A stretch of 64,000 nt of DNA from Amyelois transitella (lineage: Eukaryota; Arthropoda; Insecta; Lepidoptera; Pyralidae), in NCBI RefSeq assembly GCF_032362555.1, contig NC_083514.1, positions 7,177,001 through 7,241,000 of the forward strand, written 5' to 3'. This document shows positions 14,664 through 62,052 of the stretch, in pieces (position 1 is the first letter of the stretch; each line of letters begins with the position of its first letter). The position numbers and the translations under genes are program-made. The notes below the pieces were generated by a model. It saw only the letters and a list, made by a program, of their open reading frames with translations. It did not search any database and was not told the origin of the DNA.

Positions 14664-17600
14664 CTACCTCCCTGAGAATATATTGATGGAATTTGATGTC
14701 GTTCTTTTTCGAACGAGTGTCGCCTCAACTGAAAAGAAATAATTTTTTTGGTTAATAAAGATACCCATAAACAATCTACAAAATTTTGTACTTTGGTTTC
14801 CAAAACTAATGAACTGATTTTGATGAAATTTGCACATAGTTACAATTGACCTTTACAAGTAACATTAGCATATAGGGGTTTTCACAAATCTCTAATAAAA
14901 AAATGCATTTCGTAGACGCGTGTATTTTATAATTGATAACTAACTTTGCAACTATACTTCCTACATTTTTAATGCATTATCATTTGAGGATGATGTTATA
15001 CATGTAAATAAAGTATAAAAAATAAATAACGAAATAATAAGGACCTTTAAAAATAAAGTATGTTTGAATTTTACAACGATTCTTCATAATTAATTAGCAT
15101 CAAGGGCAGTGATCTATTAGATGGTTATAAAACCACAAAGAATCATAATGGACAATCATAAAGGATCCTTAATTTTTTTTATGAATGGAAATATTTTACA
15201 ACGATACTCTATAATAAGTATCAAGGGCAGTGATCTATTAGATGGTTACGCAAATTCTATCGTCATTCGTCATGTTACGTCTATCGTCATTTGTTATGTC
15301 ATAGTGTAACAATATACTAAGACATCAAAAATGTGACGTAGTGAGTTCCTTTTTTCCATAAATTGAAGTTCAATACCATTGTTATTGAGAGTAGAGCTAC
15401 TGAAAAGAAATGAGGCCAATGACCGAAACCATTTTGTGAATTAGATTTTGTTATTCAAATTTTGTTCAAAATATTATCATATCTTTCTTGTTCGTTTTCA
15501 ATGCAGTCACAGTGCTATTGACCGAGTTACCGTTTATCCTATTAACCCGCCAGTAGTCGCGCATGGGTCGAAAAGACCCAGAGCTACAGAATTTGATCCG
15601 TAATTTCTATAATATTATTAGTTTAAGTTTGCCGCGCTAGGTACCTTCAAGTGACTTCATAGTGAACTCGTACCCCACACCTCGGCCATTTCGCCTACGG
15701 CGTTTGAATCGGACGGACGTGTCAAGTGAGTATGGGTCATTTAGACCCTTACGCGACGGTTCATGTAAGTGATTTTTATTACAATTAAAAATATAAATCA
15801 TTATTATTATTGTATACAGAATGTCTCGTATGCGATTAGATGCCGCGACTATTGAAAAATTATTGTATAAAGATGAAATCGAAGGGGAAGAATGTTCGGA
15901 AATCGAAGATTACTTAGAAATGGACGAACATGATTCTAATTCTTGTCAAACTTCGGAAGAGGTATCTACTGAGTTTGTATCTTCAAATCCAGTACCTACA
16001 TCAGATAATTTATTTCAAAGAAGAACTGATCTAAATGATGTACCATTGAGCTACATTTGTCAAGGACACTACCTCTCTAAAAATGGAGTTGTTAATGGAA
16101 TATTGAAGAACCTCCCAGATCAGTACGGACGCGAAGCCTCAACATTATCAGAGAGCGTCCTGGTCCGATCAATGAGGCTAAACATGCCCAAACACCTTTC
16201 TCAAAGATTTAGCTTTGAGTTTGGTGATGTCACAAATTCAAAAAAGGTCTTCTATCACTACTTTACCTATGCATATCACAGAAAGATCTCTACCATCAGG
16301 GGTAAGTAATGTTCGTGGTCGATGTTCGCTCTGTCCCCCTAAAAAGGATAAGAAGACCAAGACTCAGTGCCATTACTGTCAGGCATTTATTTGCCGAGAT
16401 CATACAATGTTTGTGTGTGAAAATTGCAAACAAAAAGATTAATTAGAGTCTAAAAAACATACCAAAAAATTTGTTTAATTCTAAGATTGATAACTTTATA
16501 GGACTTTTTTGTGATAGATTTTGAGGCTGATTCTTATAAAACTAAGATTGTCTTATTGTTTATTAGTTTTTTTTTTATACGAAGATACTCAGATACTATA
16601 ATGAAAACATAATTATAGTTGTTAATTATTAATAAAAATAAATAATTATCTAAGTTTTTTGAAGTGAAATGTTAAAAGTAACTTTTTTCTAGCACATTTT
16701 TATTATTATAGATAAAGTTGATTGTTCCAGTAAAAGAAATTAAAATGTCAAATTACATTACTTGTTTTATTGTTAAATTTGTAACAAATACATTACTTCA
16801 TTAAAAATATATGTCTTGTGATTTAAATCATCTAAATAATATATGGGTCTTATCGACCCGGACGCGACTGTTAGTGTCCCAAAATGAAGCGCGAGTACTG
16901 GCGGGTTAAATGTGCACCATTTGTATATAAAGTTACGTTTTTACAACGGATGTAACTAATTTCGTTTTATTTGAAATATAGGTGCACACGCAGACAAAAG
17001 TTCGATCTAGCTAGATCCCTCGTTTGAAAAAAATATATTTTTACCACATCGGCTCCGCCCGCACTCGTCTGTTGGTCCATTGGTCAAAGTGCAAGTTTTG
17101 TGGTTTTCTTAACAATTAACAAACAATACTGTGGCATTGTGAACGTCCTTTTTTTTGAACAGTTTCGGTTAAAAACACTGAACTCCGATCGGTCGCCCAC
17201 GTACTCTAAAGGATGAAAAGAAACACTGCCTTTCACTAGTTACTTTGCACAAACGGGTACGTTACTCACTTGTGGAATCCTGAGGTGTGAGTGGTCTTTG
17301 TATGGTTTGCTGTATGACAGCTAGCCATCCCGCCCTGTCTTCGTGCGTTTTCGCAGCGAGACAATACGTCCGCTCGGGGGTGACCAGCTGGAAAGGAAAC
17401 CTCGCGTCCTTGCAGCCATTGCCAGTGTTTGATACTTTGATGTAATAGCCGTTTGACTCGTGTCCTGGAATTTTTGATTTTAATATGAGATTTTGAATGG
17501 TCGGAATATATTTAAAGCTACAATTTTCATGAATAATCAAGAGTAGTCAGAACTTTAAATAGAAAAAGAAATTTTAAAGATTTTAAGGCTTTTTATACTT

Positions 17601-20600
17601 TTCAATGCACACAATATATCTACCTACTTCTGAAATGTTTGTATGAACCTCTTTCATGGCAGAAGTTGCGGACGAGACAGATGCTTCGTGTAAAAACCTG
17701 ACTCCTGACCTCGTGGTCAATGCCGTACCTCGAGCTCCACTCTAGGGAGATGAAAACGCAACCACGACTAATTCCAAAAGCTTTCAACGGGAGAAAAAAA
17801 GATAAATTGATGTAAAATAAAAATACGTATCACTTACCAACAAATATTTCGCCTTTCGGATACGCATCAAGCGGTTCATCGTGGTACATAAGCTTCCTAT
17901 TATCTAAAGTGAACCATCGCCTCCGATGGACATCTGAGGGCCTAGGTCCTGTCTTCCACAGAAACCCTTCGCGGGCAAAGTCTTTTGGAAGGCGTTCGAC
18001 GAGTTCTGACTGGGGTATGGAAGGAAATGCCACTTGCAAGAGGTGCAGCTGAGCGCAACGAATTGCTGTGTACCTGACAAGGAAAAAACGTTTTGAAGTA
18101 GACAATTAAGTATGTATAATATACTTTTTTATAGGCGAGGGTACTCTGTAAATGAAATGTAAAAAATAAAAAATTATCTACATAAATTATAAATATAATA
18201 ATACATATTCCTAAAATTATAATAATAATGTTAGGTATACTGAAAACTCTGAAAACAAGATGGCCCATCGGCCACCTTGGGGCATCCCCCAAGGTGGCTA
18301 CTGACATAACATTTATGTTACAAATTCACGCTTTGAAAGCGGTGGTAAGTATATGATATGAGGTATGATTAAGAAATAAATGATTGACGTCAATGGATGG
18401 TATTCTAAATCTCATGCAATCAATATCAATCATCAATACATTTATGTAAATTTAAACGGTCAGTGACTGCCACGACAGTCATTTATAAAATTCAAGCCTT
18501 TACTGATTTTGATGAAACATTATTAAGTTAATTAATAGGATAAATAAATATTGCATCAATCTTAGTTCTCAGCTATTTTTACAATTGGTATTAACAATGT
18601 TCACACCAATTTTAAATACATCTTATAAACAAAGTTCACAATTGCGCTTTTTTTGGACCAAATCACTTTTACACTAATTTAAATACAATTTTTAACCTTA
18701 CCAATTATTTATGACTTCTGAATCGTCATGATACACATATATATGCCTGGTGGAGCCATCCTTCATAAAGGTCAATTGCAAGGAGTTCATATGTCCGATC
18801 TTTGGAGGAGCAAAACATACGTTCAGTTCTGACAACTTGAGAACCCCTTTTGGTTCCCTATTCTCTCGTACGTGGTACCTGTGAAAGGTAGACAAGATTT
18901 ATTAGTCACTTAATGATAGTATAGGTAAATTTTTGTGGTGACACCTTTTCCCGAAGTGCTCCGTTTATTAAAACAAAATCTAATCAACTTTTCTCAACAG
19001 GACAATACATTTCCCTTTTCCCATCCGATTTTAAAATACTGCATGTAACATATGTGCATGGTGCAGCCCCGTGATCACAACACGCAATATTTTGTCCATC
19101 TTTCTTCTATCTACTGTAATTCTTACAGCATTATAATATTTTTACCAAATTAGAAACAAATGTCTGATACGTATTTTTTCGATTACGTATATATTAAGTA
19201 GCTTCTATATCCCTTACGGGGTAGACAGATCCAACAGTCTTGAAAAGGCTGAAAGACCACGTTCAGCTGTAAGGCTGTATGATCGAATTTCTTTCATAGA
19301 TCTCGCAAATGCGGTGTTCACGACAAGAACAGCTGTAGATTCATTTTTATATAGGTATGAGAATACAATAATGCTGTAAGAACCAGACACACTTTACATA
19401 ATTCAAAAGACATGACAATAAAATTCTCATAACTCTTCCCACCCTTTTAAATACATGCTTTTTTATAGAATTACTCGTAATTACAATAATGCGCATATAG
19501 TACAGGAATCGTGTTCCTAATAACTAATTTTCTAAATTTTTTTACATAAATCTTTTTCCTTACTCTGAAACCGTCAAGAGTCTTACCTTTTCAAAGAGCC
19601 TTTTCAAGATTCTGCCATAGCAGAGTTCACAATATATTTTTTGTGATTTTATAATTTGTTCTCTTTTCTTATAGTAAATAAATGATATGCAACGAATTTA
19701 GTGTAATAACTGTATGCCTTGAAGTACTAGCAATAATATTGGTTGGTACCAGATACAGTATCTAAATAAGTACGATTTTACGATCAACTTTACCTTGAAA
19801 GACCGTCATGCATGCTAGTCATGACGATTTAGTTTGAGCAATACTTTATTATTGCCCACTTTACATCTGCAGTTATTCACGATATTTTATGGCATAATAA
19901 AATAATTACGATATAATAACAAAATACAAAACACGCATTGTTAGCAAATAATATTGCCCTATTGTCAAACAGTCGATGCATACTCGTATATGCATACATT
20001 TAAATCTCAATTAAGTGCTGCTGTTAATGGACTTCTCGTCATACAAAAAGTAACATTCAGAACGCACACTTTTCACACTAATTTCCCAAACTAGTGTGAC
20101 TAAGTCGTGTTTCAAATTTAAAATGTATTAATTCCCCTACAATCTGTCAATATGTAATTGTCTTAATTAGTAAAGTAGAGCAAACTGCATAATATTTCTT
20201 ATCTTAAAAATTATTTTAATTGCTTCTGTTTCCACAGTTCATATTCGGGTTAAAACCCAGGTGTTATATTATAACCTAGTTACACAATTGTAATCTTTTA
20301 TATGAAATTTATAAATGTATTTATTCTTTTAAGTTGTTATAAAAAGTCGCCGTGTCTTAATTAAGGGAAATTATAAAAAACCATTAAATTTACGTAAAAT
20401 GTCGCAATCATTAGTGGACCTAAGCATAATTTATTTTTCTGATGGGCAACTACGAAAGCCTGTGTTGCGCGCAGCTTTTACGATATCCACTTGGCCAATT
20501 CGTGTAATTAAACTGAACTTAAATCATATAGAAACTTAATATATAACATGCAGAAATACATACTATAAGTACATTTTATAAACATTTTCCAAATAGGTAC

Positions 20601-36562: not shown

Positions 36563-39500
36563 ATGGGTCGCCGATCTATTAATACCACTAAAAGTGGTAA
36601 ATATATGAACCCCACGGATCAAGCTAGTAAGTAAATATTGTTGATATATTTGCTATATTAAATTTTACCAATTTGTCTGTAATTAAAAAACAATGGACAA
36701 TTTTCATGTAGAAAACAATTTAAAAATACACGCACAATCATCCTTCCAAACAGGTAATTTGATCTCGCAGCTAGTGAACCGAACATTACATAAATAATCA
36801 CGTTTATATCCCTTGCTAGACATAGCCAACTGCTATACAGTTTGAAATCGACCAATAAGACACTTCTCTTTTGAATTAAAAAGAAAATCACATTGTATTA
36901 TACATATTATATTGGAGAATTTCAGCATGTATAAAAAAAATACACTTTAGTTGATAATGTTTGGTCAAAAACAGGATTTCATTTTACTGGCAAACAAAGG
37001 ATCCTCAGACAGAAGCATCTTTGTCTTTTTGGAGTGAACAACACTGTAAACCTGACTTAATCAATATGTGCATAGATAGACCAGTAGGGTTAGTGCGACT
37101 TCAACTGGGCCTTTGGTCCAGAGTGGTGAGGATGGATATATATTTAAACTTTATTCTCGTAAAATGTACAATATGTGAACATAATGTCACAAGGCATCTC
37201 TGCCAGTTGAACCTTTGTACCAAACTGAGAGGGATGTACGGGTGGTGCGATATCTGTAAAAGAAATAAAAATATGAATAAAAGGTTCCACTTACATACAT
37301 ACAATAATTTAAACACATAACATAAGATTATAGAAATATACTCCTTATAAAATAAACACCCATATACTTCATAAGTTGGATATTGGGGAATAATATTTAA
37401 AATGAAATTTTACTATACATACTGTATTTTTTTGCAATCACCAATTAATATTTTATAAGTAAATAAAAGTGCAATGAATATAATTCCTTCAGTTTCTATT
37501 TAACCAAAGAGAGATAGTAGCACCTTTATACTGTTCTATATTATTTATTTATTTATTTAAACTTTATTGCACAAAATACAAATTGCACCTTCAGTGCAAC
37601 AAAGTCACAACAACTTTTTTAAATTTTACAGGAGAGAAGACTTAATTTTTTTTTCTCATGTATTAGATTATTTCTGGATTACTATTTATAGTAGGTTTAA
37701 CATCTTTGCAATTAAATTGTTTTCTTTTGCGGATGTTTTTGTTGCCCCAAGTAAAGGTATGATTAAAAAACAATTTGGTATACTTAGTTTGTTTTTACAA
37801 TTTTAGCTACTTGTGACTTTGTTGCACTGAAGGAGTGAAATGTATAGCACAATTGGCAGACTTAATGCTGAAAGCATTATCTACCAGTCAACAATTGGGT
37901 CAGACAGGGAACTTTATGTGGGGTTAAACTAAATAAATATATTTTCTACACAAAATATAAAATAAAATAATTATAATTTACATACATAAAAACTACAATA
38001 GATATACAATATACATAAATAAATGGGTGCAGAGATTACCGAAATGAGTGAAAAGGCTTATAGGTATTAAATACCCTCAGGACTCAAGAAAAACCCGTAA
38101 ACCCTATTTGAAAGTAGAACGACTTAGGGATGTCCTGATGGACTTAGGAAGTGAATTCCAGAGCCTAACAGCCATAATGGCGAATGGAGGCAATACCTGT
38201 ACGGTGAAAAGGGATAGCAAGAGTTCACTTATTTCAAGAATGTAGGATTTTTTAATTAATGCTCCTGTATGTTTTTGTGTACATAAAACAATAAAGTAAA
38301 TAAATGTAATTTTTAATTTTAACTTATAACAACTTATACAACTTTTGATCAATGATTCTGGAGTTTAAAATAATACTTTGGATTATGTATAACATATGTT
38401 GGGTACTTTGTATTATCATAATATGTTATGAAATATTTTTGATATTGCACAATGTTGTGAAATGAATAACAAACCAAGCTACTTGGCAATCTACATTCCA
38501 TGGATTTCTTATAATGGTTCTATATTTAGACAGCCATATGATTCTCGACGTTTATAAATTGCAAGCTTCCATGCTGGTGTTGTAACAAAAAAAGTGTGTG
38601 CCAGCTTCCTGTACAGATTGCAAAAGTCAACCATGGAAAAAGCTCATAAACTTAGAATTCATCCTTGAGGCGATGGGCTTGCAACTATGTTCCAATTCTA
38701 CATTCAGCCATTCAGTTGAATGTGGCCTTTGAGTCTGTTTAAGATTGTTGGCTCTATCTAGCCCATGAGGCATGGAGCAATGATTATATGGTAGTATGTT
38801 TGAATGGTTGCTTTTTCGTTGGGTCAGAGCTAATAAGTGAGATGGTGATGACTGTTGAAAAGTAATGATGATTGTGATTTGTAGCCATATGTCTTAAAAA
38901 TGTATCTGGTACTCTTGATGACCTGTTTGGCTCAGATGTCTGATTCTTTCCTTTGAAAAAAGTTCCAATAGCTCTGAGGTTTGATCCCCGTTCAGGTCTG
39001 GAAAAAGATTTTTACTTTTAGGACTGGGTATTGCAAATTTATCTACTTAAGAATTTACTATAAAATGTATTATTATCATTGAGTTAGTATCCACAGCATC
39101 CCTAATACAAATCTTGAAATTTGTATTTGCACTTCATGTTTGCACTTCAAGACTTACCTAATATGTATGATTTATCCCGTATTTATTTATTTACTTTAGT
39201 TGATCTTTATGTGCATGGTTACATACAAAAACCAAGGTAACTTGCATAAAGCATTTTGCTTCATTCAGAGTTTTAATGGTACTTGTCTGGAGGAAGCCCC
39301 AAGTCGGTTAGGCAAGTAGAAATATGTGGTGTCTGTACACCTCTAGACAGAGCATGACTTAATTATAACGTTGTGAATAAAAAAATATACTTAAATAATT
39401 TTTTATCATTATTTAAGTATATTTTTTTAAAATAACTATTGACTTTAATTTTTACTTAGAGTATTAAGTTTAATTTTTACTTACAATATTTACTTTTGTT

Positions 39501-42500
39501 TTACAGGAAAAGAAGCCAGAAAGAAAGAATTGAAGAAAAATAAAAGGCAAAGGCAAATGGTTCGGGCGGCGGTACTCAAAATGAAAGATCCCACACAGAT
39601 ACTTGAGGAACTACAAAAAATTGATGAAATGGGTAAGTGTTTTGTTGTCTACCTTACTTCAATTATAGCTACCATTAATTATTTTTCTTCTGTTCATAAA
39701 TTCTGGTTGCGTTTGTATAAATTATAATTGCTGTGCTGAGTAACATAGCTTTACTATCATTTGCATGTTAGATTCCTTACTGCAACTACAGTCTTTTATT
39801 ATTCTGAATTTAATAGTGCTGTTTTTAAATTTCTATATCTTCTGCAAACAGAAATGACATGCATCTTATTTAGGGTTCCCATCTCTAAAATTTGGAAAAC
39901 CGGACAAGACGCGTGAAAACCCCGGATTTTAGAGTCCGAAAGCCGGACATGTTAACAAGATCTTTTAAACATATACAATGCAATAAAAGACATTTGAATA
40001 TTAAACAACAAATCAGAACATTTTTAAAGATTAGACCTACAGCAAGGTTTTTTTATTTATTATTTTTTTTTTATTTATTAATATTTTAATTCTAAAAATA
40101 AAACCTTCCCCGGACGCTCCCCGGATGCCCTCTAAACTAGGACAAATTCGGGGAAACCCGGACGGATGGCAACCCTAATCTTATTTAAATTTTTATTTAA
40201 ATAAGATGCAAACTTTTCGATTTTGGTTTTTAGAATATAATGTGCTGCAACCATCGCCGCTCAATGAAAAAGTTTTAAAAGAAAAAAGAAAAAAACTTAG
40301 AGAAACATTTGATAGAGTTCTCAAAATGTATGTAAGTATCATTCAGTTTAATGTTTTGGTAAGTATGCATTAAGTATATAAAATAAACAGTTTTATGGCA
40401 ATGTGCTACAGTAAGTTTAAATCCAGACCATTGGACTCAAAACAAACAAGTTTATAAAATCAAATACATAATGCACATGGTCAGGACCTGAGATAATGTT
40501 CATTTATATAATTAAGTCTACAACCCTTGCGGGGTAGACAGAGCCAGAAATCCTTAAAAATGATAGAATTGAGATTCAAATAATGACAGGTTGCTAGCCC
40601 GTCGCCTAAAAGAAGAATCCGAAGTTTATAAGCCTATTCCATAGTGGCCTTTTACAACATTCATGGGAAAGCCATGGAGTGGTACTATTCTTTTTTATAT
40701 TGGTGCTGGGAACCACACGGCTGGCTTCCACGTTGGTCTTGTAGCAAAGGAAAAAAACATAGCGTGTGCCAACTGCTTCAAGTTATAATTAGTCCTAGAT
40801 TAATTATTACAATCTTTGAGAATGTATATGATTTTATTTTGACAAACTTTATCAAAGACGTCAAAACTGTTTAGTCATTCTGATGGTGGTGATTGCCAGC
40901 TTTCTGAATGATTACGATGATGGCATGTCAAGCGGGCGATGGATCATAGCGAGGTGTGATAAGATTTCGTGCTACACCACTACGTCGCATGGTAAAGCTG
41001 AACAAAAATGTTTATGATAATGATAACGATTCCATTGTTTACTAGTTGTTACCTACTTTCTACCGTGCCGTGTGGTTACTTAAGAATAGGACCACTCCAA
41101 GTCTTTCCCATGGATGTCGTAAAAGGCGACTAAGGGAGGAGCTAAATTAGCTTGGTATTCTTGTAGGCGATGGGCTCGTAATCTGTCACTGTTTGAATCT
41201 CAATAACATCAGTTAGCCAAACAGCTGTACGTGGCCTTTTAGTCTTTTTAAAACTTGGCTTTGTCTACCCCGCGAGGGATATGTATATGTTTCTGCATCT
41301 AAGTCACACTGAAGCGGGTTCGATTTCCGGTCAGGTTATAAGATAAACGATCAACGAATCTTTTCCGATTGGCACGTCGTTGATGTTTATCTATTTAAGT
41401 ATTTATAAAATATACTAAGGATGTAACGTAGAAATTAGTAGCCATAGCGCAGTCTCGAACTTACTTTGCAGCTAGCCTTTATGTTCAAACTGGTATAATT
41501 ATTTTACGTGGCCCGTACATGAGATAAGAGATGTTTACGGGTAATAATACGTGTGGTTTCTAAAATCAATATAGAAAAACAATTATTTAAGAGATTTCTG
41601 CCTTTACTCAAATAGTTAAAAGCTAAATGTTAAAAGTAATTTGATCAAATTTTCGAAACTAAATTACTAGATGTGTTTCTTACAAGTTACGTTTCATACG
41701 TTTATTGCAATCAATAATTTATTTTATTAATTGTGTAAACTCTTACATTATTTTTTATTTCAGGACAAAGACGAACCAGAGAAGTGGGTGGAGCTGAAGC
41801 GGCAAGAGATGGAGTATGAGAAACGGAGGGCGCATCTGATCTCTTACTACGAGTCAGTGAAACACGCCCAGTCGGTACAAGTTGATGATATCCCTTTGCC
41901 GACTATACAAGTGAGTATTTTATTACATCCACAGTAAGAAAGTCTTTATTCAAACTATTAATATAGAGAAAAGATTTGTATTTTCATGTTTGAAAGGAAT
42001 AAACTCACCTTCATGACAAAAGTGGCCTACACTTTTTTCTGGAATCCCCCACGGAAGCGAAGCCCTGCGCAAAAGCTAGTGCGACATAAGCCGTGTCTCA
42101 CTATGTACAACTATAAAATTATCGTTCTTCTATTGTCTCATATACTTAAGGAAAGTCAGGTCAAGCAAAATAACTCAAAGCGATTGCCGTTTGAACTTCA
42201 TAATCCTTCTAACAACCTAACCTAACCTTGGGTAACCTTAATTAAACTAATATAAAATACTATATTATCCATTATGGTAACCAGTTGCCTATGTGCAGTT
42301 TTATACGATTATATCTCTCGCCTTAATACGAGAAACTATTACGTATTAGTCATTACATTATAAATAATTTTTTAGGTTCCAGAAAATGTGCTTTACGGCA
42401 ATTTGCCATCACAAATACCCCTTCCAATGGACATAACTCAGCCAACTCCGAAGCCTATATTGAAACACTACCCTAAGGTGAGTACATATTCGTTTTTTGT

Positions 42501-43188: not shown

Positions 43189-46100
43189 CGGAACCTTTGA
43201 GCTTAATTTTCACTGATTTCTAAACGTCTGATAAACTTGAAACTTTGCACACGTATCAAGGACCGATGACAATGCAATATTTTGATAAGAGTTTCTCATT
43301 ATCCTTATTAAAACTGCCAGGATTAATAAATTCATTTTTAGATCCTTCGTATGAGAGTAAGAGAGACAGAGATAGCACCAGTGCCAGTAATCTCCATACA
43401 AGAAACCAAGAAGTTCTGACGTATAAGGAGTCCAAAAAGAGATGTAATATATTTCCATATAATGTTACTATTAACCTGAGGCTTTTTTATTTCATCGCAT
43501 CGCTCCATTTAGAATTACCATTAGAAACAATAGTAGAATTAGTAGAATATTTTAAAACAATAAAAAATATATAAGTAATAAAACAAAAGTAATAAATGAA
43601 AATTGAACAACTAAATTTACAACAATACAAGAATAAAGTTACTACCTACAGAACTTTGCGATATTTAATACGTATTTAACATATTAATGCAATTCTTGAA
43701 TTAACATTAGGTATCTTTTGCCTATTTATAATAGCAACACTGTAATACTCGTTTAAGAAATGAGTGACAGTTTATTTTATGTCAAATAATTTTTGCAGTA
43801 AGTAAGTTTGTTTTGAATTCGATTAGTAAACCTGTAAACTTTCTTTCTGTTTGTTTATACCGGTGCCTGTGTATTTACCTATTTGCACTTTGTTTTGTGC
43901 TGATAACTTGTCGTTATTTGTAGTTTGGAATCTTCCGTTGAGTCGAGCTTTGTTCCGGATATTCGTGTGATTTTATCATCTGAGATTGGACTCTGACTGT
44001 GTTCACTGTGTTGTGCAGATATTTTTTAGATAGGACTCCTGTAAAAAGTACCTGATTATTTGAGATAGGAGTCCCAAGTTTGTGTTTGTTTTTGTGAAAG
44101 ACAGTTTTACAACGAAAGTGCCACGATGTCTTCAGATAAACATTGTTGCGTTCCTGGTTGTAAAGGCAGTGGAGGTATGTTTGAAATATTTTTGTTCCTG
44201 TATCAATCTGCCTCTTAATCTTGTGGTTTGATTCCTGACAAGGCCACAATCGAAAATTATTATGTTTGCTGGATAGTCAAAAATATTATTAACAGTGATT
44301 TATCACTATAAAATTCTTTTCAACTGGGTTTAACAATCATCATACATACATACATACATATAATCACGTCTATATCCCTTGCGGGGTAGACAGAGCCAAC
44401 AGTCTTGTAAAGACTGATAGGCCACCTTCAGCTATTTGGCTTTAAGATAGAATTGAGATTCAAATAGTGACAGGTTGCTAGCCCATCACCTAAAAAAGAA
44501 TCATAATGATGAGAATATTATGAGATTTAATCCAATCAGGCCACATATAACTTTAAGAAAGTTAGTTGTGAAAACCGCCGGCGATGGGCGCATGGTTGCG
44601 AAAGTCTTTTCTAGTAAGATAGTTATACTAGAAGTGTTAACTTCCAAAAAATAATTGTATAAAAAAACTAAAAAACTGCACTTTTTATTGCTAATCGAAC
44701 TAAAAAATAGAAAATAAATAATAGTTTAAAAAAAACTAAAAAACTACGCTTTTATTGCTAATCAAACTAAAAAATAGAAAATAAAAATTAATGACAAAGG
44801 AATTCAGTAGTAGCAAGTCGAACAATCAGTTATAGTCAGTTGTAGTAGTAATTACCTCGGATTAAAATTATAACAAAATTAAAGTTATTAACAAAACAAT
44901 TTAAATCGGAGTAAAAAGCGTGGGGTGCATTTTACTTCATTTTCATAACTCTCTTGTCATAAATATATGCTAATAGAATGATTTTAATATTTACTACATC
45001 AGGCACCCCACGCTTTTTACTCAGATTTAAATTGTTTTGTTAATAAATTTAATTTTGTTATAATTTTAATCCGAGGTAATTACTACTACAACTGACTATA
45101 ACTGATTGTTCGACTTGCTACTACTGAATTCCTTTGTCATTAATTTTTATTTTCTATTTTTTAGTTTGATTAGCAATAAAAGCGTAGTTTTTTAGTTTTT
45201 TTTAAACTATTATTTTTTTATTATATTATTATTAGTTCTACATTCATTCATGTTTTTTTAATGTAGACAATATGCATTCGCCCACGATTTGGATTTAAGA
45301 GATCTATTTTTGTAAATTGACGTCCGATGAAAATGCTGCAGTGTAGTTTGTTCCGCCGCTTCTTCTACACATGCGCTTTGGAAGCGGTAGTAGTTATAAT
45401 TAGATTTAAGTTATGTGACGTCGATAAGTGATACCTTGTATACAATTTTGAAAATAAATCTATTCTATTCTATTATTCTATGTATTATACAGGAATGTCG
45501 GCCAGCAGGCGTGGACCCGCCGGGCGTGCCCCCCGGGCCCCCGCCAGACTTCGTGAACATCCTCCTGGAGGCCACCAAGCTCGAGAGCGTTGCGAAGATC
45601 AAAGAACCAGTCAAAGAGAAGAAGCAGTTAAGGTTCTTGGATATGCCCGATGAAGGACCGCCTGGTGAATGCATGGTGGGTATTTGTAAGGTGAAATCAA
45701 AAAAGCCAATTTCAAAATTTTTGAATAGTAAAAAAATCCTTGGAATAAACGCCGCACGTTAGAATCTCAAAATGAGGCGTGTTAAGCTTTGGTGTGTAAA
45801 ATATGAGAAATTTATTAAAACATTGAGACAATAATTTTAACCGAGTAAATTTTGCTTCACTGAACTTTTGGGCTGATCGGAAAGATATCAATCAAGTTAC
45901 AACACTAGATACTAAGTTCTTAATAAATAGTAACACCTCGTAACAATTCTTACACGTCCGTTTATAAAGGATCAGTATACTTATCACACCTGAAGGGTTT
46001 TTATATACCGTTTTATATATTTTTTTACAGACATCCTGTCACATGGACGTACCTGTGCCCAATCCGATCATACCGGCAGTAGTACCGCACGTGCCAAATT

Positions 46101-50338: not shown

Positions 50339-50523
50339 ATTTTTTCAGAATATTATATCTTGTAATAAAAAAAAATACACTGTTGTACTAAACAATTTTT
50401 AATTAATTTAAATTATAAAATTTTAAACTTAAACTAAAAATATAAAGCCAATAACCCGTCGTCACAATAAAATCTAATTAGGCAAAACTAATACCCGTAA
50501 TTAAAATTATGTTAGTATCCTCT

Positions 50524-51517
50524 TTAGCATAATGACATCAGTTCGACCAATGGGCACGGTCTTATGCAACATTGGTCTATGAGATCAAGGAACGCCGGGG
50601 GCATCAATGCATCATCGCTGTCGTAGGACATCTCTGTAAAAAATTCATCTTTTAGAACTTTGTTTCCTGCAGTGGGTGAATTGATTTAGAGGAAAACAAA
50701 ATAGGCCGATATCACACTGTACCGTATATCGTTGATGTTTAGCATTATTTTTAACACACACAAAATCACATGCACGGTAAACGAAGAATATTTTACCAAA
50801 TTTGTTAACAGATATATGCACGCACCCACTTAGGTATAATTTTGGATTGGTTGAATGGCAAAGTTATCTGGCAAAATTATATATGTCTGGGGTGTGTTTT
50901 GATATGAAGAAACAAAAACCGCATTATCAGTACCGTAAGTCCAGGCTGTTTGTGTGCACGGTGCAGTGTAACAAGCGCCTTACAGCGATTGGTAATTTAT
51001 GAAGTTACAATGTTTGGGACGACGTTGATAGATTGCAAAATTTGTTGTTTCATCGAAGTCGTGCTTTATAATTACAATACAATCCCGTAATATGTCAAAC
51101 AGCTGAACAAAGTTTAAAGTTAATTATTCAGTTAAGTTATTACTCAGTTTAAGAGAAAATCATTAAGGAGAAATTGACAATTGGTTGGATGACTTTATAT
51201 TTTCGATGCTGTATTATGATCCTTTGCAATGTACCATATGCATATAAATAACAGTGGACCATATGCTGGTGAAAATTGTGCACATCAGTTGGTCCATGCG
51301 GAAAACATGGGTGAATTTATAACGAAATCATACACTGATTTCAAAACTTACCAGAAGAATCTCCGTAGAAGCCTCCATTACACAAATGAAACACGGCTTG
51401 TGCTAGTGCCCTCTTGCAGACAGTTTTGGAGAATCCCACATAGTTGTTTGTTAGTATGTGTGATGACACCGCGACGCTATAAACCACCAGTACGATAATG
51501 TAAACCTTGCTGTTCAT
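50524..51517 (-). CDS. Insulin-like peptide, short single-chain type
   Basis: Two coding exons, 51517-51352 and 50666-50524, joined in phase 1 by a GTAAGT donor and a CCACTGCAG acceptor; 102 residues. Residues 1-19 are a signal peptide (MNSKVYIIVLVVYSVAVSS). The B chain has C34-x11-C46 (CKRALAQAVFHLC). The A chain at the end has C88 C89-x3-C93-x8-C102 (CCIRPCPLVELMSLC) and the stop follows the last Cys. This is the full six-cysteine insulin pattern. The connecting segment (about 47-86, GNKVLKDEFF...SYDSDDALMPP) has no KR, RR, RK or KK pair, so it may remain a single chain, as in insect IGF-like peptides, unlike bombyxin. The phase-1 intron in the C region matches the conserved insulin-family intron. 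A CTATGTTGCAG acceptor 13 bases before the ATG suggests a 5' UTR intron. The secreted hormone role is inferred from the family. Confidence 0.9.
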
Positions 51518-60135: not shown

Positions 60136-62052
60136 GGGTACGGGTACCAGTAGTCAGCCTTTTAGCGAAAAGTGTAAATTTAAATATGTATAGAAAATTA
60201 TTGAAAATAGTAATAAAAAACCTTTTGTACTTATATACTTAATCATTTATTAAACTTTGATAAGCAATTAACAAATAACATAATTTTGCTTAATAAGTAT
60301 GGAAAATAAAATATTTATCAAAATAAGGCACTTTTCCCCAGTACTCAGCCGGCACAAGCCAGCACTCGGCCATGTAGCTACCAGTAGTCAGCCTCTCCTG
60401 AGATCGATTGTTTTAAGCTTAATTATGTAGGAACTTAATCAAATTAATTAAATAATAAGGCCTGAGTAGGTACTCTAATATCACAAGAACCATTATCAAC
60501 TTATTCATCATTAAAATCACTATTTAAAAAATTCTGAAGTTCTTCTTCATTTCTAAAGGTTTCTCTACGATTAACCATTTTTTTCAGAACTAAATTTTCT
60601 TTATTAGTTTCTTTCACAGGAGTTCCAGGTGTTATGACTACATCACTGAGGATTTTAATCTTATTTGGTTTAGCTTTCTCTGGATCACAGTTAGTCTGCT
60701 CTGCTTCTTCTCCTTTTCTTTCTTTCATATCGTTTAATTTTCTTTTTTTAATACTTTTCATAATGAATTCTGGATCAGAGTCATCAATTTTCTTTTTTGT
60801 ATTAAGTCCTTTCACTTTACGTATGATAGAATTCACAGCTTTATTTTTCTTGGTTTCATTTTTCTGCTTTTGCTTTTCTTCTTTATTTTTCTTTCTCTGT
60901 AACTTTCTTTCTTCAATGGCATGTTTCTTTTTTTTTTTGTTTCTCAGCCTCTTTCATAATTTCAAATTGCCTCCATTCTTCAGACGATATTGCTCCAATT
61001 CTGTTCATTACTCTAGGAGATGCGGTTTTCTTTATAGGTGACGGAATAATGAGATGCTTTCGAACAAAAGGTGATACTTTCGGTGATCGAATGAGTATCA
61101 CAGAATAAGTCTTAGGTTTTTGGTAATACGTCGGTTCACTTCTTGACATCGGAGGGTTGTTATCGTAGATGAAGTCTATCTTGAATTGTGCCTCGAGGAA
61201 CCCCATAGTTTCTACTAGCTTCTCTAATAGACATGCCATTTCTAATAGCGTCTAAAGCTTGAGTAACTTTCTCTTCGGGGTATTGTAATATGGGTCTCGA
61301 AAGAGACATATGGAACTGCAAAAAATAAACAATACCAACAAATTAAGGAAATACTTAGTATTTAAGGGCTTATTAAATAAATCGATAAATTAAGCAGCGT
61401 GAGTTACGAATGGCTGAACACTCGATTCACCCTTCCCAGTACTCCGCCGTGGTTTAAACAAAACTAGTTAGGCGGCCGACTACTGGATTTTTGATGAAAT
61501 GTTGAATGGCATGTTTATACTAAATTAAAATGTGAATTTCAGACTTTAAAATGATACCAATAAGACTTTAATTTAAAAATATGCGTAAATTCCAGTACTC
61601 AGCCGGGGGTGGCTGAACACTGGATAAGGTAAAAGAAACGTATACCCAGTAGTCAGCCACCTCATTATTTAAATAACTATAAAGAAACTGTTATATTACT
61701 TATTTGATTTTGACGTGAAAAATGTACATCGAGTATATTTTTATAAGACATGATATAAAAGTTAATAAGAAATCACAATAACTCACCTTCTTCTCGGACA
61801 CCTCCCACTAAGAAAATTTTGGCGCGCACGCCGCCTCTTCACTCGCCAAGTGACAACGTTGAAATGGAACCCGAATACTATTTCTTGCAACCGCGTGGCG
61901 TCATTCTGATCTTCCGAACTGACCAACAAGAAGCCAAGGCCTTTTTCAAAAGTGACCTGATTGGATTATTTGCAATAGAACGCTATTCTTATAGGATATT
62001 AGCCGGAAAAGGCTGACCACTGGTGCGGGGCTGACTACTGGTGGCCGTACCC
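60136..62052 (-). mobile_element. Internally deleted pogo-like DNA transposon (element P2)
   Basis: The 24-bp terminal inverted repeats at 60136-60159 and 62029-62052 match at 22 positions (GGGTACGG..ACCAGTAGTC, then AGCC). TAAG flanks both sides (60132-60135, 62053-62056), containing the TA expected for this superfamily. The motif CCAGTA[G/C]TCAGCC, part of the ends, recurs about a dozen times inside in both orientations. Transcription would run on the minus strand: a GC-rich leader near 61800-61860, a GTGAGT donor at about 61785, then an acceptor TTTTTTGCAG just before the transposase ATG at 61309. The transposase core is deleted. Confidence 0.85.
60501..61309 (-). pseudogene. Deleted pogo-like transposase with psq-type helix-turn-helix
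   Basis: From the ATG at 61309 the frame reads SLSRPILQYPEEKVTQALDA, then MSIREASRNYGVPRGTIQDR, a pipsqueak/pogo-type helix-turn-helix, and stops near 61160. A second frame resumes at NNPPMSRSEPTYYQKPK and continues through SPRVMNRIGAISSEEWRQF into a lysine-rich stretch, the kind of tail that follows the DDE_1 domain. That catalytic domain is missing at the junction (about 61160-61180). An 11-A run (about 60931-60941 on the minus strand) shifts the frame; ten A would join it to the frame ending LQNFLNSDFNDE at 60501. The lesions mark it as inactive. Confidence 0.75.

Follow-up and report, generated by a model that had tools for sequence, protein, structure and literature searches.

In the classical bombyxins the C-domain is bordered by dibasic or monobasic sites on both sides; monobasic sites are described for some bombyxin C-domains (PMC3745042). 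The C-domain of BIGFLP (bombyxin-Y1) from Bombyx is also flanked by dibasic sites, yet the peptide leaves the fat body uncut according to the sections dealing with it (PMC3745042; PMC6895095). A shortened C-domain is given in a review as a mark of insect insulin-like growth factor (IGF)-like peptides (PMC3745042), which in the relevant passage of a beetle paper are said to be usually devoid of a dibasic site and, in some cases, to carry a D-domain (PMC6880982). Genes for arthropod IGF (aIGF) are described to contain two additional coding exons, which give rise to a C-terminal extension (PMC7357564). Here, a two-exon insulin-like gene of the moth Amyelois transitella is compared with these systems. 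It lies in a stretch of 64,000 nucleotides (the window; positions 7177001-7241000 of contig C10, NC_083514.1). The explanation which we favour, though with clear reservations, is that of an intact insulin-superfamily gene of bombyxin descent or close bombyxin kinship, which lacks both dibasic convertase sites and the product of which most likely is one chain acting on the insulin receptor tyrosine kinase.

The gene is encoded on the minus strand (51517..51352 and 50666..50524), and a base-for-base re-derivation agreed with the exons, coordinates and six-cysteine insulin pattern proposed by an earlier, sequence-only reading. Its elements, in positions of the window, are:

51352..51517, minus strand: coding exon 1, 166 nt, with putative signal peptide (about residues 1-19), B domain (C34, C46) and start of the linker; the only B-like motif of that kind in the window
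50667..51351, minus strand: phase-1 intron, 685 nt, GTAAGT...TGCAG, with the boundaries CTG/GTAAGT ... CACTGCAG/GAA
50524..50666, minus strand: coding exon 2, 143 nt, with the remaining linker (K58, K61), A domain (C88, C89, C93, C102) and stop codon TAA
51531..51532, minus strand: candidate acceptor AG (TTTTATGTTGCAG/) of a putative 5′UTR intron, located 13 nt upstream of the ATG and proposed from the sequence
50398..50403, minus strand: ATTAAA, a weak, possible polyadenylation signal

Exon 1 starts with the ATG at 51517 and ends in phase 1, as had been claimed, and the intron has GT..AG boundaries. Its donor at 51351 scores in eight of nine consensus positions, which is unique in the gene (the runner-up scores in seven). 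The joined frame comprises 102 residues, of which 34, 46, 88, 89, 93 and 102 are cysteines. Their spacing, C-x11-C ... CC-x3-C-x8-C, is the pattern of the insulin/IGF/relaxin superfamily, and the last of them is directly followed by the stop codon. The proposed signal peptide was recovered as a signal-peptide-like N-terminus (hydrophobic stretch 5-17, mean hydropathy 2.8, small residues at -3/-1). Both exons are richer in GC (44% and 43%) than the intron and the 1-kb flanks (35%). The sole dibasic pair of the protein is K35-R36 and not a single KR, RR, RK or KK is present between B and A chains, which bears out the central observation of the sequence-only reading. The only basic residues of the linker are K58 and K61, within K58-V-L-K61, and none is present between K61 and C88. 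If the signal is cut after S19, the computed mature chain has 83 residues, a mass of 9230 Da and a pI of 4.78. Taken by its sequence, the gene looks like a real and intact member of the insulin superfamily.

Relatives were searched for in the genome of the same species (327,366,114 bases, 33 contigs). Five of these contigs measure 9.2-12.8 Mb, which agrees with a lepidopteran karyotype. A search with the Pfam family Insulin (PF00049) yielded at least 11 matches including this gene, of which nine were over the cut-off, while this gene and L011 were under it. The ten paralogues, a number to be taken as a lower bound, are:

Six intronless bombyxin-type genes: L001, L003, L005 and L009 on C10 at 2.06-2.08 Mb (cluster), L002 on C21, L004 on C20
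L006/L012: on C5, carrying CCTIGCTWEQLSKYC, by the likeness of which we take it to be of the relaxin/Dilp7 type
L007/L013: on C5, a two-exon gene
L008/L014: on C8, at least two exons, start not found
L011/L015: on C10 at 6.35 Mb, intronless and divergent (L015:5298-5597; G000:C10:6352303-6352596, plus strand); B8 is Arg and A1 Glu, the linker has 33 residues, there is one KR, and the score of 21.0 bits is under the Pfam cut-off

The models of L012, L013 and L014 use splice sites that were picked by consensus; in L012 a middle exon may be missing, L014 is without its start, and for L013 the donor could be either 5754 or 5766, of which the latter was used for the counts. All ten paralogues contain at least one dibasic pair between CysB19 and CysA6, whereas the insulin-like gene contains none, which makes its missing sites the more notable. 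Between these two cysteines its linker has 41 residues, compared with 41-46 in the six bombyxin-type genes and 33-57 across the ten paralogue models. An intron of phase 1 in the C-domain is also found in L012, L013 and L014, with splice sites chosen as stated above; as it recurs in these genes, it looks like an old trait. When the protein was used as query against the genome, its own exons were recovered (E = 3e-30 and 4e-26) and, beyond these, only two genes of the bombyxin type (E = 0.015 and 0.9, with identities of 33% and 34%). Among the best candidates scored there was no close copy, so that none has been found for this gene in its genome. The highest identity in the core alignment was to the bombyxin-type gene L001 (47% of 36 columns), and in pairwise alignments L003 (z 15.5), L001 (z 11.3) and L011 (z 10.9) stood highest above shuffles.

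The similarity to the insulin family extends beyond the cysteines, and a chance pattern is disfavoured. In a six-frame translation of the window a single CCx3Cx8C motif is found, compared with averages of 0.08 for 100 base shuffles and 0.07 for 30 Markov simulations. The ordered combination of an upstream Met, a B-motif and, no more than 3 kb away, an A-motif is likewise present once and did not appear in any of these 30 simulations; with no further pair of B- and A-motifs, a second insulin gene was not detected in the 64-kb window. A hidden Markov model (HMM) built from nine paralogues gave the protein from residue 21 onwards 21.0 bits (26.9 bits with all ten paralogues), a score which none of 500 cysteine-preserving shuffles reached (mean 1.7, maximum 14.3). 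The top match among solved structures was the A chain of bombyxin-II (E = 0.047). An NCBIfam scan gave one weak, meaningless match, and neither an Rfam match nor a tRNA was detected in the window. Pattern matches in viral contigs (four) and in bacterial and archaeal genome contigs (24) yielded no confirmed relatives, as would be anticipated for a gene from an insect. In paper texts none of six A-chain strings was found.

As the paired basic cutting sites are missing, the product is probably uncut: the cuts known from insulin are not to be expected in a linker that has no paired site, and this absence makes an uncut form more likely. A single chain is hence the best reading of the sequence, although an unproven one. 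Precedents for single-chain peptides in Lepidoptera are BIGFLP (PMC3745042) and an IGF-2-like peptide of Helicoverpa armigera (PMC9180042). Like BIGFLP, the product would be a single-chain hormone. BIGFLP, however, keeps its flanking dibasic sites, which are presumed in the sections cited to be spared by the producing tissue (PMC3745042; PMC6895095), while the gene studied here has no such sites. The peptide of H. armigera resembles it in having no KR at either boundary of the C-domain and in that cleavage was not seen, but, as far as a comparison by description allows, it differs by having RR close by and by a band reported at 30 kDa (PMC9180042, passages on this peptide).

Several observations weigh against the favoured explanation; they concern processing, receptor, kinship and family score. 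With regard to processing, the general convertase motif is (K/R)-X2-(K/R), and KVLK (K58-K61) could be one possible minor site of this kind. The product may thus be processed after all by a convertase cut after K61, perhaps combined with trimming by another enzyme, which would give a hormone of two chains, of which the A chain carries a long acidic extension. The monobasic sites of some bombyxins, mentioned above, would agree with this. As no basic residue is found between K61 and C88, however, a cut that releases the A chain close to its normal start would not be possible, and a true dibasic pair is what the linkers of all paralogues found contain. We consider such processing unlikely. The uncut sites of BIGFLP show in turn that the presence of dibasic sites does not prove cutting; together with the fit of KVLK to the motif, this means that processing is not settled by sequence alone.

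With regard to the receptor, the positions A1, A19 and B8 are important for fold or receptor binding in insulin. A19 is Tyr in all ten paralogues and Leu here. A1 is Gly in eight of them, Glu in L011 and Gln in L014, and Asp here, and B8 is Gly in eight, Arg in L011, Ser in L014 and Lys here. Both glycines are consequently missing in the same three genes. With Asp A1, Leu A19 and Lys B8 at such places, the action on the receptor is uncertain. The CKR that had been pointed out in place of the usual CG(R) is indeed present and unusual, but a non-Gly B8 is not unique to this gene. With regard to kinship, none of the eight inner branches is starred in a tree of the 11 genes (36 core columns), the nearest row by path is L011, which is not a bombyxin, and bombyxin descent is not fixed by these data. 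Finally, PF00049 matches residues 32-102 of the spliced protein with E = 0.001, but its 20.5 bits do not reach the curated cut-off of 23; on the same footing four of five paralogues score 36.5-42.8 bits and L011 21.0 bits. In the six-frame genome search with PF00049 exon 2 alone matches (17 bits, E = 3.1). With this score and this partial match, the remark that automated annotation could miss the gene was fair.

The replaced residues also bear on two other explanations. One is that the gene is an orthologue of gonadulin (Dilp8-type), a group marked by gonadal expression and an LGR receptor, or that its product is a different ligand bypassing the insulin receptor kinase. The non-glycine residues shared with L011 and L014 would fit this idea, and gonadulins are described, in the passage on their recognition, as having the same six cysteines while being too divergent for easy recognition (PMC7357564), as is the case here. 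Its A-chain CC-RPC--EL-S-C, however, resembles bombyxin, the genome matches of the protein are bombyxin-type, and L011 on the same contig is an alternative candidate for a gonadulin, so that we regard this explanation as improbable. The other is a decaying former hormone gene that has been released from selection. Residues kept in paralogues (Tyr A19 in all ten, Gly B8 in eight) are missing and the gene has the longest end branch of the 11-gene tree (1.11). Against this, the reading frame is intact from start to stop, as are the splice sites, all six cysteines and the signal-like N-terminus, and the GC contrast of the exons is kept, which leaves only a small chance for decay.

The kinship to bombyxins can also be judged feature by feature. 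With the six bombyxin-type genes of this genome the gene shares the six-cysteine pattern, a linker within the range of 41-46 residues and, with most of them, PC---EL-S-C in the A chain, and they provide its sole cross-matches in the genome. All six differ from it in that their coding part is free of introns, their linker contains two dibasic pairs, and Gly and Tyr occupy B8 and A19, respectively. Compared with the classical bombyxin C-domain, basic sites on both sides are not found, as K58 and K61 stand alone with none near the A side; at B8 the gene has Lys instead of the Gly of the six bombyxin-type genes. Another insulin-like type is described, in a passage on gene structure, to have one C-domain intron and two 5′UTR introns (PMC3745042); with regard to intron layout, the only feature compared, the gene shares the first and has a candidate acceptor for the second. 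This type may fit L013 better, in which both features are present and the KR sites are kept.

The sequence-only reading had further called the hormone IGF-like. The absence of a dibasic site at the domain boundary is indeed shared with DILP6, TcILP3, AmILP1, GcorILP3 and aIGF, which usually lack it as summarised in the beetle paper (PMC6880982). These peptides, however, have a short C-domain and some a C-terminal extension, neither of which is seen here, the linker of 41 residues not being shortened. As the gene shows only the first of these three traits, it is not filed as IGF-like and is regarded as a divergent member of the insulin superfamily that probably works like a single-chain hormone. 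Insect IGF-like peptides are further characterised by expression in the fat body at metamorphosis. An aIGF gene with missed 3′ exons was considered as well, since the extension is easily overlooked if a donor is ignored, as the account of these genes points out (PMC7357564). A crude scan found no exon-2 donor with at least six of nine consensus positions, the stop stands straight after the last Cys and the linker is not short. The aIGF-type motif GTVxPx(F/Y) was absent from the 12 kb downstream in a crude scan, which is not sensitive as it was also empty behind L013 and L014. On these grounds an aIGF gene was rejected as highly unlikely.

For the favoured explanation the following sequence of events is proposed. 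A gene of bombyxin descent or close kinship would have kept the old phase-1 C-domain intron while lacking both dibasic convertase sites. Its secreted preprohormone would mature by removal of the signal at about residue 19, and the circulating form would be one acidic chain of about 9.2 kDa with three disulphides and B, C and A joined, nicked at most once at K58/K61. This hormone would act on the insulin receptor tyrosine kinase and might originate from a source outside the brain neurosecretory cells, such as fat body or gonad. The sequence itself shows the anatomy of the gene, its family, the missing sites and no close copy in the search, whereas its expression, uncut form, receptor and tissue are what we infer. 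In a more far-reaching and rather improbable version, the gene would encode a dedicated, obligatorily single-chain lepidopteran insulin that is unconvertible in any tissue and whose role would be weak partial agonism, antagonism or binding to a kinase-less insulin-receptor-like protein, such as has been reported for Lepidoptera in part of one account (PMC7357564).

The surroundings of the gene include a WBP11 gene on the plus strand, recognised by a Pfam match of the piece 39449-39724 (E = 1.8e-11). By reading it appears to run to about 48962, although the four further pieces so read have no Pfam match; if it does, WBP11 and the insulin-like gene are arranged tail to tail, about 1.6 kb apart. 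An inverted repeat within the putative WBP11 gene (44704-45227), whose 225-nt arms are 97% complementary and separated by 74 nt, resembles an insertion of the foldback or miniature inverted-repeat transposable element type. The core GTCTACCCCGCAAGGGATATAGACG of a dispersed repeat, a candidate mark of Lepidoptera, occurs three times without mismatch in the window (29006, 44391 and 49854), one of these copies lying about 670 bases downstream of the hormone gene stop. Another lepidopteran repeat, looked for by three short pieces, and telomere-like repeats, looked for by two, had no match in the window. An open frame at 61163-61342 (minus strand) contains a Psq helix-turn-helix domain (E = 2.2e-11) and adjoins two frames at 60504-61251 without Pfam match; it is possibly a pipsqueak-like or transposon-derived gene. 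Two frames at 17265-18105 (minus strand) each match one half of a PH domain, with scores (E about 1e-4) that stay below the Pfam cut-off, and perhaps belong to an ArfGAP with PH domains.

The case illustrates that genes of the insulin family can score below the curated Pfam cut-off and may therefore be missed. The lack of paired sites is unusual within the genome of A. transitella, yet it fits a known kind of insect hormone. If the product is truly uncut, it would provide a naturally occurring uncut insulin whose linker is of full length, and it would separate two causes of single-chain hormones in insects: production in a convertase-free tissue, as proposed for BIGFLP, and a precursor that is itself free of sites.
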